Below, piece after piece: positions 3,109 to 46,674 of a stretch of DNA of 64,000 nt. The notes beneath the pieces were generated by a model, which was not told the origin of the DNA, made no database searches, and saw only the letters and a program-made list of their open reading frames with translations. The stretch is from contig CP046866.1 in assembly GCA_009789175.1 (NCBI GenBank), positions 1,736,001 through 1,800,000 on the forward strand, written 5' to 3'. The stretch comes from Salinibaculum litoreum. GTDB lineage: Archaea > Halobacteriota > Halobacteria > Halobacteriales > Haloarculaceae. The translations under genes were made by a program, and so were the position numbers. Each line of letters starts with the position of its first letter. Within the stretch, counting starts at the first letter, position 1.

Positions 3109-3285
3109 CCTCGTTGCAGGCGGGCAGGCTCGCGGATTGCTATGCTGGCAGCGCGATATCTCTTGGTAGTCTGGGACTGAGACATCACTGGTGTCGTCTC
3201 CATCGGTATGGGAGTCGGTTCGATAGTTGTCCCGACACCGAATGCACTGTCAGCGTTATCACTCTGCGCGCGGTTCCGTGAAGAA

Positions 3286-3302
3286 TGCCCGGGGAGGGCT
3301 CC
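3286..3302 (+). repeat. attL core, 17-bp copy of tRNA-Met 3' end
   Basis: TGCCCGGGGAGGGCTCC repeats exactly the T-arm/acceptor end of tRNA-Met at 41210-41226. The sequences diverge immediately on the right (ATACCC versus GAACCC), which fixes the crossover interval within these 17 bases. Confidence 0.9.
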
Positions 3303-3311
3303 ATACCCGAG

Positions 3312-3319
3312 CTTTACAT
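3312..3319 (+). promoter_or_regulatory. Integrase arm site overlapping int TATA
   Basis: CTTTACAT lies 9 bp inside attL and is the exact inverse of ATGTAAAG at 41191-41198, 11 bp inside attR. In the circular virus the two would flank the core as an inverted repeat, as integrase arm sites do. TTTACAT is also 27-33 bp upstream of the integrase ATG, the usual TATA distance for a leaderless haloarchaeal transcript. Confidence 0.55.
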
Positions 3320-3345
3320 GCCCGGCACCTCTCAGACGCCAGCAC

Positions 3346-4560
3346 ATGACCGACAACCCGGCCGGAGCGGTCAAGACAATGCGCGACCGCCTCCAGGACG
3401 AGCACTACGACATCAGCGAAGCCGACCGCCAGCTCCTCCTCGACCTCTCGGACACCATCCAGCTGATGGGGCCCTCGGAGTACAGTGACCACCGCCACGA
3501 GTTCCTGCTCCGCCGTGGGCTCATCCTCGCTAAGCAGGTCGGTGGCCTCGCCGACGCCGTCGACGACCGCGACGCAGCGGAAGACATCGTCCAGTGGATC
3601 AACACCGAACAGACTAGCAGCCCCGAGACGAACAAGGACTACCGCGTCGCCTTCCGGAGCATCGCGAAGATCGTCACTGAGGGCGACGAGTACCCCAACG
3701 CCGTCGAGTGGGTCCCCGGAGGCTACCCGGAAAATTACGACCCGGCGCCGGACCCCTCCGATATGCTTGGGTGGGACGAAGACATTCAGCCGATGCTGGA
3801 CGCCAGTCTCAACTCCCGCGACCGGGCACTGGTTGCTCTGGCGTGGGACCTCGGACCCCGTCCCGGCGAACTCTTCGACCTGACACCGGGAGACATCGTC
3901 GACCATGACTACGGCCTGCAGGTCACGTTGGACGGCAAGAACGGCCGGCGGTCGCCCGTCCTGGTCCCGTCGGTTCCCTACGTCCGCCGGTGGCTTGACG
4001 ATCATCCCGGCGGCGACAGCGACCCGTTGTGGTGCAAGCTGAGTACTCCAGAGAGTATCTCGAATAACCGTATCCGCGATGCACTGAAAGACGTCTCCGA
4101 CCGGGCCGACGTGACCAAACCCGTCACGCCGACGAACTTCCGAAAATCCTCGGCCAGCTACCTCGCCAGCCAGGGCGTCTCCCAAGCCCACCTCGAGGAA
4201 CACCACGGCTGGGTCCGTGGGTCGGACATCGCTGCCCGGTACATCGCCGTCTTCGACGATGCCAACGAGCGGGAGATTGCCCGCGCCCACGGCCTCGATG
4301 TCGAGGCCGACGAGCCCGACGACATCGGCCCTATCATCTGCCCGCGCTGCGAACAGAAGACCCCGCGAGAGAAGGACGCCTGCGTCTGGTGTGACCAGGC
4401 GCTGTCCCAGACTGCTGTCGAAAAGATCGAAGAGCAGCGACAGACGGCGATGCGAGACATGACTAGCGTCGACCAGGATGTCGCGGAGGCCATCGCGACC
4501 GTCGAGCAGGAGCTGGGGGACAACACCGGGCTCCGCATCGAGATTGTCGACGACGAGTGA
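3346..4560 (+). CDS. int: Tyrosine recombinase (provirus integrase)
   Basis: The 404-residue site-specific recombinase has an N-terminal SAM-like core-binding region (residues 1-130) and a catalytic domain with R172 (GPRPGEL), R266 (NFRKS), H287 (HHGW) and nucleophile Y299 (ARYI). The usual His of HxxR is replaced by Thr263. A C-terminal zinc ribbon (CPRCEQ...CVWC, about residues 335-355) and a short helical tail follow. The ATG at 3346 is chosen because the longer frame from 3208 would cross attL. It should catalyse integration into, and excision from, tRNA-Met. Confidence 0.92.
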   Translation: MTDNPAGAVKTMRDRLQDEHYDISEADRQLLLDLSDTIQLMGPSEYSDHRHEFLLRRGLILAKQVGGLADAVDDRDAAEDIVQWINTEQTSSPETNKDYRVAFRSIAKIVTEGDEYPNAVEWVPGGYPENYDPAPDPSDMLGWDEDIQPMLDASLNSRDRALVALAWDLGPRPGELFDLTPGDIVDHDYGLQVTLDGKNGRRSPVLVPSVPYVRRWLDDHPGGDSDPLWCKLSTPESISNNRIRDALKDVSDRADVTKPVTPTNFRKSSASYLASQGVSQAHLEEHHGWVRGSDIAARYIAVFDDANEREIARAHGLDVEADEPDDIGPIICPRCEQKTPREKDACVWCDQALSQTAVEKIEEQRQTAMRDMTSVDQDVAEAIATVEQELGDNTGLRIEIVDDE

Positions 4561-9024: not shown

Positions 9025-9612
9025 ATGAGCGAGGGGAAGTCAGACGCGAAGTGGGTCTGTGCTAGCTGCGGCGCTCGGTACGCCGAACGGAACCCGCCCT
9101 GTCTGCAGTGTGCTGGCGAGGAGTTCGCCCGCCTCAATGACGACGGGACGGACCGTATCACGGACCGGGCGGATGTCACATACCGATGCCGGGATTGCGG
9201 ACGGAAACACCCGAGAAACAGCCCTCCGTGTAACAACTGTGGTGGCATGGACTTCGAGACTGTCGGTGGCGTGAACGAGTCGCCCTCGACAGCGACTGAC
9301 ACCGACGACTCCCCAGGACTTGTCGAGAAGGTCCGCGGTGTAGTGCCGGGGCTGTCCCGGTCCCGCACGCCGCCGTCGGGCCCGAAGTCACACTCGGTGC
9401 TCAACCCCCGCGGCCCGTTTCGGCCGGTCCGTCGATGGCTGGGGTGGGGCACGCTCCTGCTGCTGGCCCTCGTCATCATCACCGGGCTTCTCTCCCCCAG
9501 CGCTGGGCTTCTCGCTGCTTTCGTGTGGGGCGGGTGGGTTCTCCCGGGGGCGTTCAGCCTGTGGGTGCTCTTCTGGTTCATCGATATGATTCTCGCGTAT
9601 CTCAAGTCCTGA
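9025..9612 (+). CDS. Double zinc-ribbon two-helix membrane protein
   Basis: The 195-residue protein carries two tandem zinc ribbons (WVCASCGARYAERNPPCLQC, residues about 10-29; YRCRDCGRKHPRNSPPCNNC, about 53-72), a low-complexity linker, and two transmembrane helices (about 140-160 and 163-190). The ribbons should face the cytoplasm. The same architecture occurs at 23397-23942 in the provirus and at 45865-46674 in the chromosome. It could tether nucleic acid or a partner to the membrane, or mediate superinfection immunity; none of these is demonstrated. Confidence 0.72.
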   Translation: MSEGKSDAKWVCASCGARYAERNPPCLQCAGEEFARLNDDGTDRITDRADVTYRCRDCGRKHPRNSPPCNNCGGMDFETVGGVNESPSTATDTDDSPGLVEKVRGVVPGLSRSRTPPSGPKSHSVLNPRGPFRPVRRWLGWGTLLLLALVIITGLLSPSAGLLAAFVWGGWVLPGAFSLWVLFWFIDMILAYLKS

Positions 9613-21086: not shown

Positions 21087-21704
21087 CTATGACGTGTTCT
21101 GCTTCTGGGAGACTGGCGAGCCGAGTGACGCCAGTTCGACGCAAGACATCGACACGGTGGCCGTCGACGACTCTTGCTCGGCATCGAAGTTCACCTCGGG
21201 CTGCTCAGGAGCCACGCTAAGTGCGGGGAACTCCTCACCGTACATCCCAATCGAGAGCGTCGCCGCGTGGCCGTCAGGGTAGTCGTTTTTATCAGGTGGT
21301 GCCGGACGTGAGTCGATCTCGGCCAGCTGGAGGACGCGGTCGAGCAGCTGTATCTGCTTATACGGCTTCGCGCCCGTCTGGTCCCACGTCGGATGCCCGT
21401 CGCCTGTCCCCCAACGGTTGCTCGAGCCCTCGCTGATTTGCCCCTCAACCTCTGTAATATGTTGCCCGCCACCGAGATCGACTAAAATTTGCTGCTTCTT
21501 GCCATCGCTGGGCGCATCACCGCCAAGCTGCTCATAGATGTCCGTCAGGATATCGACGACATTGCTCCCGCCCTCGATTAGATAGCCCGTCCGATGTTGA
21601 TGACTGAGACGGAGATTCGCATCCATCACGAACTGGAAGTCTTCGACTTCGCCGTCGTCGTCGATATCGAACCGTGGCATGTCGAGAATCCACTGCAGCG
21701 CCAT
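21087..21704 (-). CDS. Distal tail protein candidate (205 aa)
   Basis: The 205-residue product, immediately after the tape measure gene (one-base overlap), begins MALQWILDMPRFDIDDDGEV. It has a helical middle (IKE-like LLDRVLQLAEID) and a beta-rich end. In siphoviruses this position holds the distal tail protein that joins tube to tip. The sequence itself does not prove this. Confidence 0.55.
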   Translation of the reverse strand: MALQWILDMPRFDIDDDGEVEDFQFVMDANLRLSHQHRTGYLIEGGSNVVDILTDIYEQLGGDAPSDGKKQQILVDLGGGQHITEVEGQISEGSSNRWGTGDGHPTWDQTGAKPYKQIQLLDRVLQLAEIDSRPAPPDKNDYPDGHAATLSIGMYGEEFPALSVAPEQPEVNFDAEQESSTATVSMSCVELASLGSPVSQKQNTS

Positions 21705-23278
21705 TAGAGGCCTCCCGGGAAGTCAAGTTGGTCGCTGATGTACCGCTCGGGGTCGCGCAGGAACTTCTGCAGTTCCCGCTCGTTGCTGATATCCAGCGCC
21801 GTCTCCACCTCGTTCGTGAGGTCGACATTAACCGTCACTTCAGGTCGGTCTGGCGTTCCCCGCGAGGATTCCGACTGGGTGGTGTCAGCCGAGCCGCCAG
21901 AGCCGCCTGATCCGCCAGCTGTCGAGTTGTCCCCACTGGAGTCGAGCCGGCTCTGGAGACGCTGGCGTGTGTTTGGTGCCAAACCGCCGTCGCGGAATTC
22001 GACGCCCATAGTGAGGGACGGTTGCTGACTGAGAACTCGTTGGATGAGGCGCCGGTCTTTCTCCGGCAGGTCGGAGAGTCCGGTCACTGGACCAGAGTTA
22101 GACGTCCCGGTCTGGTCCAGTGACGGTGCGTCTGCGTCTGGATCTGGCGTGGGGGAGATCGTCCCCGTCGCCGACGTCGTCGAGCCGGCCATGATTGGGG
22201 CCTGCTCCGATGCTATCGTCGAGAGGATGAGCTCTCTGTTCGTCATCCGCTCGTCCTCCGGGATGTTCTCCCCGATACCCGTCGGTGAGATGGTGTCTTC
22301 GCCGGCGATGTCAGCGAACATCCCACGTGAGATCGGGCCGAAGGCACCAGCTGCTGGGCCGCCACCACTCGCCAGGACCGTTTTCGCCAATGCCCCTCCA
22401 GCAATCGCGATGGAGCCCCCAATAGCGAGCTCCTCCCATGGCAGACCACCGCCGGTTCCATCTCCAGTATTGTCGCCAGTGTTGTCGCCTGTGTCCTCCG
22501 CCGAACCCTCTCCCTGGGCTTGTTCGATGAGGTCGTCGACGTTGATAGGGAACGCGTCTGTGTTCAAGACATTACCCAGACTCAGAGGGAACGTGTTCTT
22601 TGGGAGAATGTTCGTCAGCGATACAAGAGGCGTAGCCGAGAGCAGCGCTCCGACTCCAATCGGTAGCGGATCTTTGAGTATGTTCGTCTCTTTGATAGGT
22701 AGATCTGAGCCAACAACGTCGCTCGCAAGCACAAGTGGAGTGGTGGCAAGCAATGCCCCAACCCCGATAGGGAGAGGGTCTTCAACAACGTCTCCCACAC
22801 TGAGCGTTGTGTCAATAACATCCCCAGTTGTGATTTTGATTGGGTCAATGGCACCAGAGATGACGCTATCCCAGGCAACTTGAGAGATGCTGGTGGCGAC
22901 TGCAGTGGCGAGAATCCCCCCACCAATGAGAAGATTGCCGATGTTAGGCAGGCGGGGGAGTTGTAGACCGCCCCCCTGTTGCGCAGCCATCTCGTTCGCG
23001 TCAAGATTTTCGCGTAGCAGTGTGTTCCGCTCTTCAGCCAGATCGACTAACTCGGAGCCGTGGTCCACGATGGTGGTCAAATGTTTGTTCGCTGTATCCA
23101 GTGCTCCAGTCATCGCAGACTGTGGACGACCTCCAGCCTTGTCGGCTGCGAGTTGTGATGCTGAGACCGTAGCCTCAACTTCAATCGGACCGACATCTTC
23201 CAGTTCCTGTTCGATGCGACTGACGCTGTTTCTGTCGAGCTTTGCCTCAATTACGGATTCTACTGAAAAGTCTGTCAT
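21704..23278 (-). CDS. Tail tape measure protein
   Basis: The 524-residue protein has an N-terminal helical region (about 1-115), hydrophobic segments (about 115-145 and 285-305), duplicated PLPIGVGALL units near 165 and 205, Gly/Asp-rich linkers, and a C-terminal domain. Length, hydrophobic patches and its place between tail chaperone and distal tail gene identify it as the tape measure. By the usual relation of about 0.15 nm per residue, the tail would be near 80 nm. The gene is separated from the chaperone by an inserted membrane-protein gene. Confidence 0.72.
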   Translation of the reverse strand: MTDFSVESVIEAKLDRNSVSRIEQELEDVGPIEVEATVSASQLAADKAGGRPQSAMTGALDTANKHLTTIVDHGSELVDLAEERNTLLRENLDANEMAAQQGGGLQLPRLPNIGNLLIGGGILATAVATSISQVAWDSVISGAIDPIKITTGDVIDTTLSVGDVVEDPLPIGVGALLATTPLVLASDVVGSDLPIKETNILKDPLPIGVGALLSATPLVSLTNILPKNTFPLSLGNVLNTDAFPINVDDLIEQAQGEGSAEDTGDNTGDNTGDGTGGGLPWEELAIGGSIAIAGGALAKTVLASGGGPAAGAFGPISRGMFADIAGEDTISPTGIGENIPEDERMTNRELILSTIASEQAPIMAGSTTSATGTISPTPDPDADAPSLDQTGTSNSGPVTGLSDLPEKDRRLIQRVLSQQPSLTMGVEFRDGGLAPNTRQRLQSRLDSSGDNSTAGGSGGSGGSADTTQSESSRGTPDRPEVTVNVDLTNEVETALDISNERELQKFLRDPERYISDQLDFPGGL

Positions 23279-23396: not shown

Positions 23397-23942
23397 TTAC
23401 AAGTTACCGTAAATCCAGAGATTGCCAACAGCGTTGAAGAGAATATACAGAACAACTGCTGCAGGAGTCGTTATTTCGATTTCAGTCCATTGTTCGAAGC
23501 GCCGTCTTATCGTTGGCAAAGCGACTGCCAGTGCCCCCAGATACAGGATGACTGAAGCGTGCGATTGGATGAGCGCACCAAGCGATTGTAACAATGCAAA
23601 AACACCAGCAAGACCAGCGATGAGTGTTCGCACACTCAGTGTCGTAGGGAGAGTTGTCTGTGATGACTGTGTCGCTTGGCGTGAGGAAGATGACGAGTTG
23701 TTTTTCTGGTCGTAGTTGAACCCTCCACAAGTCCGACACGGCCCATCATTCCGCGGTGCCGTTGTCCCACAGTCCTGACAGACCCACGTGATCGATGCGG
23801 GCTCTTGGATGCGGTGTGTGTCCGGCTCCTCAAGCTTCGCAAATTGCTCACTGGCGCAGTTCCGGCATGGTTGCTCGTTGTTGTCGTGCCGGGTCCCACA
23901 GGCAGCGCAAATCCATCGCTCTCCCTCAGTGTCGGCACTCAT
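23397..23942 (-). CDS. Double zinc-ribbon membrane protein inside tail operon
   Basis: The 181-residue protein has two ribbons (WICAACGTRHDNNEQPCRNC; WVCQDCGTTAPRNDGPCRTC), a Ser/Gln-rich linker and three hydrophobic helices (about 102-122, 126-142 and 158-178). It is a paralogue in design of the 9025 gene. It interrupts the conserved order chaperone-tape measure and has its own TATA box at 23968-23977. This is the pattern of a moron, a gene expressed from the prophage, perhaps for host benefit or superinfection exclusion. Confidence 0.7.
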   Translation of the reverse strand: MSADTEGERWICAACGTRHDNNEQPCRNCASEQFAKLEEPDTHRIQEPASITWVCQDCGTTAPRNDGPCRTCGGFNYDQKNNSSSSSRQATQSSQTTLPTTLSVRTLIAGLAGVFALLQSLGALIQSHASVILYLGALAVALPTIRRRFEQWTEIEITTPAAVVLYILFNAVGNLWIYGNL

Positions 23943-23988: not shown

Positions 23989-24173
23989 TCAGTCTGACAC
24001 CGCGCCGACTGGGGTCCGTGCATCAAGCAGGTCATGGATAGCCAGCCAGTCCAGGATGTCCCGCCACGGAAGCTCCTCGAGGTCGCGCGGGTCACCGCCC
24101 GACTGGATGTAGCACGCCCGAGCGTACCTGAATAGTGTTTGTGGCCTCAAGTCGTCGTCTCTGGCGTTTTCTC
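23989..24173 (-). CDS. Tail chaperone extension read by -1 frameshift
   Basis: This open stretch has no start codon but an authentic protein signature: RYARACYIQSGGDPRDLEEL then PWRDILDWLAIHDLLDARTP. It lies in the -1 frame relative to the upstream chaperone and overlaps its end. This is the lambda G/GT arrangement, in which a fraction of ribosomes shift to make the longer chaperone needed for tail assembly. The shift site is probably the A-rich GAGAAAACG (minus strand, 24165-24173). The extension ends with TGA at 23989. Confidence 0.65.
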
Positions 24174-24701
24174 GGGCGAGTCGCCGGAGTCTGTCCCGTT
24201 TCCCTCGTCCGTGCTGCCAATGTCAGCCTCGGGGTCCATGAGCGTCGTGATGCGCGCCTCTGCCCAGTCACGGAAGAATGGATGCAACTGGGAGATAGCA
24301 CCGATGCGCTCGGCGTCCGTCATCCCGCTGTCGATGTACGGCGCCTCGACAGTCCCCTCGGCGACGACGAGGTTGCCCGACGTGCCGCCGCCGGCGTCGG
24401 GATCGGCTTCTATGTCATCACAAAGGGCAGCGTAGGCACCAGCCCGGAGTGCTCCTAGCGTGATCTTGTCGATGTCCTCGTCCCATTGCGGGAAGTCGTC
24501 GCTCTTGTAGGCCTGGTCGCGGGCCCACACGACACCCTTGCGGTGGGACTCGAGTTGCTGAATTGTGCTCGCGATGGTCTCACGTTGCGGGGCGTCAGCA
24601 TCCAGCTCCGACAGCTGGTCCTGGAGGTCGTCGATGCGGTCTTGGAGGCGCTTGACCTCGTCGTCGAAATTGACGGTTGTTTCGTTGAAGGTCTGACTCA
24701 T
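24147..24701 (-). CDS. Tail assembly chaperone (lambda G-like)
   Basis: The 184-residue protein follows the major tail protein by a 4-bp overlap. The N-terminal half is a coiled coil (DDEVKRLQDRIDDLQDQLSE), the middle is helical (KITLGALRAGAYAALCDD), and the tail is acidic. Position, size and a frameshifted C-terminal extension identify it as the tail chaperone, a non-structural protein that coats the tape measure during assembly. It lacks sequence identity to lambda G that can be judged by eye. Confidence 0.68.
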   Translation of the reverse strand: MSQTFNETTVNFDDEVKRLQDRIDDLQDQLSELDADAPQRETIASTIQQLESHRKGVVWARDQAYKSDDFPQWDEDIDKITLGALRAGAYAALCDDIEADPDAGGGTSGNLVVAEGTVEAPYIDSGMTDAERIGAISQLHPFFRDWAEARITTLMDPEADIGSTDEGNGTDSGDSPEKTPETTT

Positions 24702-25624
24702 GCGACGGTCACCGCCTGCTCGTCAGTGATGTTGACCTGGATCTGGTCGGTCGTATCCTCTTTACTGACGACCTCGTTCCAGCTGTAGTTCGCTGGCGAC
24801 ATGCCCGACAGGTTGTACGTCGAGATCGTCCCAGCTGCATCGGCGAGTTCGATAGTCCCCGAGACGCTGTCGACGTTGTCCGGCAGCGTGCCAGTACTCG
24901 ACCCGCGAGCGATGTCCAGCCGCGACGGCCCGGTGTAGGTCGCCGTCGCATCGAGCGTCGCGGACGGCGATGCGATGACCGCCCGCAGTGGCTTGGGGTC
25001 TGACCCGCGCTGGAAGCGTGCGATATCCGAGATCGAGAGCGTCACGCTCTGCTCGTCCTCGACTGACGTCCCGTCGATATCCAGCGTAAAGCCGTGGTAC
25101 GGGACGCCGGAGTCGTCGCTCGCCCGCGTCGCCGTCGAGAGGTCCGGGCTTGAGTCTGGTTCCTCATCGGCGTACGCCATCGAGAGTGTGTACGTCACCA
25201 TCGAGCCCTGGTCGTAGTTGATGTCGTAGGACAAGGGGATGCAGCCGTACAGCGTCCGTTCGCTGGTCCCCGTCGCGTAGTTGACGCCGACGAAGACGCG
25301 AGCCGACGACGCGAGGCCTGGTTTCATCGCTGTTCCGCCGTCGTTGAAGACGATCTTCTCGACCTCGTTGTGGACGTCGCTGCTGACGACTGCCTCGACC
25401 GAGACGGCGCCCTCGGCATTCTGCTTGACCGACTCGACATCCCAGACAGAGTCGCCCTCACTGAGGTCCTCCAAGTCGTTGTCGAGGTCGAGTTCCGTGA
25501 TGGAGTGCTTGCGGCCGAAGCCGAAGAGGTCGGGCGTCCCGTCGTCATCGCTGTCGACGAGCGAGCCCATGAACGAGTCCTCGTGACCGAAGACTAAGGG
25601 TGTGGCTGAGCCGGCCCCCGTCAT
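24698..25624 (-). CDS. Major tail tube protein
   Basis: The 308-residue protein is beta-rich. An N-terminal part with FGHEDSFMGSLVDSDDDGTP and an acidic linker leads into a sheet-rich core (ARVFVGVNYATGTSERTLYG, MVTYTLSMAYADEE). The C-terminal half (about 190-308) resembles an Ig-like decoration (SVTLSISDIARFQRG, TGPSRLDIARGS). It sits upstream of the tail chaperone and is of the size expected for a haloviral tail tube subunit. An ATGA overlap links it to the preceding gene. Confidence 0.72.
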   Translation of the reverse strand: MTGAGSATPLVFGHEDSFMGSLVDSDDDGTPDLFGFGRKHSITELDLDNDLEDLSEGDSVWDVESVKQNAEGAVSVEAVVSSDVHNEVEKIVFNDGGTAMKPGLASSARVFVGVNYATGTSERTLYGCIPLSYDINYDQGSMVTYTLSMAYADEEPDSSPDLSTATRASDDSGVPYHGFTLDIDGTSVEDEQSVTLSISDIARFQRGSDPKPLRAVIASPSATLDATATYTGPSRLDIARGSSTGTLPDNVDSVSGTIELADAAGTISTYNLSGMSPANYSWNEVVSKEDTTDQIQVNITDEQAVTVA

Positions 25625-45864: not shown

Positions 45865-46674
45865 ATGGATTGGCGGTGTGAGTGGTGTGGCAAACCCCAC
45901 GAAGAGAACGACCCACCATGTGACAACTGTGGGCACAGTAGCTTCGAGAAGGCAGTCGTCAGGCAGGGTCCGGACGCCGGTAGCGGGCCGGAGACGACGA
46001 GGGTCTGGGTCTGTACGGAGTGTGACCGGACCCACACGAAACACTCCCCACCGTGTAGCCGGTGTGGCAACCACAAGCTCGTCATGGAGGAGCAACGCGT
46101 CGAAGACGATGAACTCGACGTGCCGAGTTACTTCGACCTCCTGACGCCGAAATACGCCCTCGGGCTCGTCGTCGTGCTCGGATTGGCGACGGTCTTCCTG
46201 CTCGGGATTACCGGCATCGTCGACGTACCGGGCTTTGGCACCAGCGTCCCCGATGTCGAGGATGTCCCGGGGAGCGCAACGACTGCGGGCAACGCCTCGC
46301 TCGATGACCTGGAAGCATCGTACATCAGCGCGCTCAACGACCGCAGAACCGAAGGCGGGGGCGAAAAGCTGAGCCGCGCCGAAGAGCTCGACGAGATAGC
46401 CACCTACGTCACCAGACAGAACGTCAAAGCCGAATACGGCGACGCGAGCAGGCCGTCCGCCGACCGGGTGAACAGCCTGCTGGACGAACGCTGTGATGGG
46501 GAGGGGGCCATCGACTTGCTGACCCGCTCGGGCAACGAGACAGCGACGGCCGAAGAACTCGGCGTCGGGTTCGCGCTGGAGTCACCGACCGGTCCCGAGG
46601 GGGCGACGGATGTCGGGGTGGCGACACACACCGCTCCCGACGGGACGATTTACCTGACAGTAATCGTCTGTTGA
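45865..46674 (+). CDS. Double zinc-ribbon membrane protein with CAP-like domain
   Basis: The 269-residue protein has two zinc ribbons (WRCEWCGKPHEENDPPCDNC; WVCTECDRTHTKHSPPCSRC), one transmembrane helix (about 93-115) and an external C-terminal domain (about 140-269). That domain resembles a CAP/SCP fold: ISALNDRRTEGGGEKLSRAE, DEIATYVTRQNV and a final GTIYLTVIVC. The same ribbon pair occurs twice in the provirus (9025-9612 and 23397-23942). A bifunctional sensor or cell-surface protein is possible. Confidence 0.75.
   Translation: MDWRCEWCGKPHEENDPPCDNCGHSSFEKAVVRQGPDAGSGPETTRVWVCTECDRTHTKHSPPCSRCGNHKLVMEEQRVEDDELDVPSYFDLLTPKYALGLVVVLGLATVFLLGITGIVDVPGFGTSVPDVEDVPGSATTAGNASLDDLEASYISALNDRRTEGGGEKLSRAEELDEIATYVTRQNVKAEYGDASRPSADRVNSLLDERCDGEGAIDLLTRSGNETATAEELGVGFALESPTGPEGATDVGVATHTAPDGTIYLTVIVC

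Follow-up and report, generated by a model that had tools for sequence, protein, structure and literature searches.

The 64,000-nucleotide stretch of Salinibaculum litoreum DNA analyzed here (the window) very probably includes, within a tailed provirus of haloarchaea, a tail assembly chaperone cassette of the lambda G/T type, with a predicted -1 slip at the heptamer G_GGA_AAC. The 0-frame chaperone gene, G, lies on the minus strand (24147-24701), encodes 184 amino acids up to a TGA stop at 24149-24147, and matches phrog_19457 with an E-value of 3.6e-25. The -1 frame of the same strand is open from stop to stop between 24222 and 23989 (encoded product ...RYARACYIQSGGDPRDLEELPWRDILDWLAIHDLLDARTPVGAVSD). 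This agrees with the sequence-only reading, which had described a chaperone open reading frame ending at 24147 and an overlapping -1 frame. Both frames are open together over 24147-24222, and the slip must precede the G stop within this overlap.

The slippery heptamer is located at 24198-24204 on the minus strand, 25 nt upstream of the interval that the earlier reading had considered. With codon boundaries counted from 24701, its 0-frame codons are GGA (24203-24201) and AAC (24200-24198). The coding region read after the slip, T, spans 23989-24198 on the minus strand and comprises 69 amino acids plus a stop. Slipping at G_GGA_AAC would join 168 G residues to 69 T residues in a predicted 237-aa G-T fusion, with ..STDEGN-RDRLRR.. 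as the predicted junction residues.

We propose the following as the most likely mechanism. Most ribosomes would stop G at its TGA; in a minority, the tRNA-Gly on GGA and the tRNA-Asn on AAC would slip back one base together, onto GGG and AAA, and these ribosomes would read on through T in the -1 frame to give the fusion. As in lambda (PMC5009743), G would be expected to coat the tape measure protein, with tail tube subunits recruited by the T portion of the fusion. Slippage in cells, its efficiency, and the roles of G and GT are what we infer here.

The heptamer is conserved. We searched 392 genomes of the order with phrog_19457 and obtained 30 primary loci, the window among them; the relatives compared with the window are the other 29 primary proviral loci, 11 weaker matches, and the cultured viruses BJ1 and CGphi46. 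All 42 presented a canonical in-frame heptamer near the G stop (40 with G_GGA_AAC, one with G_GGA_AAT, and one with A_AAT_TTG) and an alignable -1 T extension, although the loci are partly related, so that the effective number of primary loci is below 30 and the 42 relatives do not equal 42 independent events. Among the primary loci, G_GGA_AAC was found in 29 of 30 and G_GGA_AAT in the remaining one, 33 to 96 nt before the G stop. The weaker matches had G_GGA_AAC in 10 of 11 and a T motif common to all. The eleventh, L035 (G160), is the only relative that lacks G_GGA_AAN; on its minus strand, A_AAT_TTG is followed 3 nt later by the G stop, and the usual T motif is present in -1. In the comparison with relatives, which the earlier reading had proposed as a check, both the overlap and a canonical heptamer within it recur.

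Such heptamers are rare in the surroundings. Of the 5516 codon positions in 11 viral genes of the window, 10 had an in-frame X_XXY_YYZ, and just one of these, the G slip site, was G_GGA_AAC. The GGA codon accounts for 9% of glycine codons in these 11 genes and for 11% in the G genes outside the slip site, and it is used at the slip in 30/30 primary loci. A need for Gly-Asn at the protein level is an unlikely cause of this conservation of GGA and the heptamer, since G residues 165-178 around the slip had pLDDT below 50 and are predicted to be disordered.

T also behaves as a coding extension. The T frame presented dN<dS in each of the 17 pairs tested, and beyond the G stop substitutions were overall commonest at T-frame third positions in the same 17 pairs; by this substitution pattern, T is under purifying selection. 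The aligned T sequences display a common motif around G-H-x-P-R-x-x-x-E. No Pfam or PHROG family matched T, and fold searches with its predicted model gave no clear match. The conserved heptamer, the T extension in relatives, and the selection on T place the -1 overlap far beyond chance, in line with the meaning first given to it.

Downstream of the slip, we found a candidate stimulatory hairpin on the minus strand (24171-24189; CUC-C-GGCG-ACU-CGCC-C-GAG), which starts 8 nt after the heptamer and could help the slip. It is weak alone, with a z of about -1.65. Stability was compared with that of dinucleotide shuffles in 27 loci: 45-nt segments that begin 8 nt past the heptamer had a mean z of -1.01 (SE 0.29), and those starting from 12 nt on were not more stable than shuffles. 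This dip is suggestive of a stimulatory stem-loop placed, as is usual, 5-9 nt beyond the heptamer, but the hairpin in the window is weak. A uniform conserved RNA structure was sought across the relatives and none was found; the structures vary by clade.

The gene neighborhood and the predicted fold are those expected of a tail chaperone. G lies between the tail tube gene and the probable tape measure gene, with one accessory gene intervening. The tail tube protein gene is immediately upstream (24698-25624, minus strand; PF18906 Phage_tube_2, E 4.6e-7; phrog_18409, tail). Downstream of T, on the same strand, the 524-aa product of 21704-23278 is probably the tape measure protein, as judged by its position and by its N-terminus MTDFSVESVIEAKLDRNSVSRIEQEL (MTDFS...), which is common to the gene after T in relatives; it matched no Pfam or PHROG family. 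The AlphaFold2 model of G had a mean pLDDT of 86.5. When aligned to the PDB with VIA-align, it presented Z-scores of 6.3 to YqbN (3klu) and 5.8 to the HK97 tail assembly chaperone (2ob9), the only PDB chains with Z of at least 5, which are modest values for a partly helical protein. Plain Foldseek of the same model against the PDB gave no significant match, and a search against models of viral proteins placed the tail assembly chaperone of HCTV-1 third (E 0.013). These modest scores agree with the gene order and the frameshift in pointing to a tail-chaperone-like fold. The conserved heptamer and T frame, together with gene order and fold, strongly support the lambda-type programmed -1 frameshift that had been suggested from the letters alone.

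Several other explanations of the two frames were weighed. T could be a small gene of its own, with coupled reinitiation at a TTG (24150) that overlaps the TGA of G (TTGA) and is the window's only candidate T start. The description of the T frame as ATG-less was correct; this TTG, however, gives reinitiation a possible entry, and 11 of the 30 loci have an ATG, GTG, or TTG over the G stop. The other 19 have no start codon there, and T of L016, L018, and L021 contains no ATG, GTG, or TTG anywhere. Moreover, T-frame conservation (R..L.R.ARG) begins before the G stop, already upstream of the window's TTG. These start-less frames and the conservation upstream of TTG make a separate T gene very unlikely; reinitiation would also leave the invariant heptamer unexplained, and the relatives included no clear example of T as a gene with its own start, the case that had been named as refuting the frameshift. 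Slippage of the polymerase rather than of the ribosome is another reading of the G and A runs, and runs of identical bases can make polymerase slip in general. Here, the GGG and AAA runs are short and the conserved feature is a frame-specific X_XXY_YYZ, a form that L035 keeps with another heptamer, so we give transcriptional slippage hardly any weight.

The location and kind of the slip were also disputed. The earlier reading had taken GAGAAAACG (24173-24165) as the sole slip candidate and, judging it non-canonical, had suggested that the archaeal mechanism may differ. It is indeed an A-rich string within the overlap, but its 0-frame codons GAG AAA ACG would become CGA GAA AAC in -1 with no re-pairing, and, unlike the upstream heptamer, it is not conserved in the nearest relatives. 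We therefore rejected GAGAAAACG as the slip site, and an unusual mechanism acting there is highly improbable; the canonical G_GGA_AAC lies in the same overlap, and a textbook X_XXY_YYZ is present in the window and in every relative examined. The remaining explanation is a single-base indel, by sequencing error or decay, that split one continuous chaperone gene. Decay is conceivable in a provirus locus, but the identical two-frame arrangement with its slip site recurs in dozens of genomes and in two cultured viruses. This recurrence excludes a sequencing error, which had been the second refuting case, and leaves the indel reading with next to no probability.

The predicted frameshift at G_GGA_AAC has close counterparts among known viruses. 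In phage lambda, the G/GT tail assembly chaperone is made by a slip at G_GGA_AAG. As in the window, lambda has G_GGA_AAN near the G end, a shift in the -1 direction, an overlapping T extension, and tail tube and tape measure flanks. The second codon is AAC (Asn) in the window and AAG (Lys) in lambda, and in the window an accessory gene separates T from the tape measure gene; the comparison with lambda is one of layout.

Haloarchaeal viruses offer nearer comparisons. Predicted -1 G-T frameshifts were published for HVTV-1, HCTV-1, HCTV-2, and HCTV-5, and the heptamer reported for HCTV-1 is G_GGA_AAC (PMC5009743, PMC8211752). Like the provirus described here, HCTV-1 is an archaeal tailed virus, and the heptamer reported for it is identical; its chaperone model resembles G, weakly, as seen in the model search above. 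Hardycor1 has a chaperone pair upstream of its tape measure gene (HrrHc1_110/115) with G_GGA_AAT (PMC7911831), which makes it a further halovirus chaperone pair with G_GGA_AAN, compared here by arrangement. On the other hand, a +1 shift was predicted for the HF1-group haloviruses, for which no conventional slippery sequence was found (PMC7230728), and for HSTV-2 (PMC5009743). Their chaperone frames also lie between the tail tube and tape measure genes and are joined by a frameshift, but the predicted shift is +1 there and -1 here.

The Halorubrum viruses BJ1 and CGphi46 (Graaviviridae) carry G homologues with G_GGA_AAC and a T frame, found via the protein of provirus L018. In both GenBank records, the T frame falls in an unannotated gap: BJ1 NC_008695 (L044 3001-3105) and CGphi46 NC_021537 (L045 2556-2660). 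In these two viruses the next gene follows directly after T, with no accessory gene, in contrast to the window. Searching phage proteins with G and T of the window itself yielded no match, and when viral and genome contigs were scanned for close relatives, a single doubtful match (L002) came up.

The device is known, as haloarchaeal -1 G-T slips are already published for HVTV-1, HCTV-1, -2, and -5, and Hardycor1. Our additions are modest: a likely identity as tail assembly chaperone for phrog_19457, whose listed function is unknown, the unannotated T frames of BJ1 and CGphi46, and the near-invariance of the heptamer over a wide set of proviruses. The predicted lambda-type -1 frameshift is thereby extended to a widespread haloarchaeal provirus family. 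There is little experimental support for programmed frameshifting in archaea (PMC8211752). This family offers a usable test set of about 40 natural sites, in which the heptamer hardly changes and the sequence context downstream of it varies.

The prevalence of AAC at these sites can be read in two ways. Sites with Asn as the second codon are efficient on mammalian ribosomes, and an AAG second codon is favored in E. coli. We tentatively consider that G_GGA_AAC could be kept in this provirus family owing to a preference of archaeal ribosomes or tRNAs for slipping on an Asn second codon, and we regard this as rather unlikely. The reports of G_GGA_AAG and A_AAA_AAC from other haloviruses speak against any strict AAC rule, and common descent of the G gene family could explain the preference.

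Some observations concern the wider locus. The probable provirus lies approximately between window positions 3208-4560 (plus strand) and 41000, and its genes include an integrase (PF00589), portal, terminase, capsid, and tail genes. Varied accessory genes occupy the gap that separates T from the tape measure gene in the window and in L010, L013, L014, L016, L018, L027, and L038, and this gap looks like a cargo slot within the tail module. In several relatives these genes encode lipobox-type predicted lipoproteins, and two of the three tested match DUF4352. In the window, the gap gene (23397-23942, minus strand), which is outside the frameshift, encodes a zinc-ribbon protein with probable membrane segments. 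Two related zinc-ribbon proteins are encoded elsewhere in the window, at 9025-9612 and 45865-46674 (both on the plus strand); they are 36% and 29% identical to the gap gene product, and all three apparently have membrane segments.
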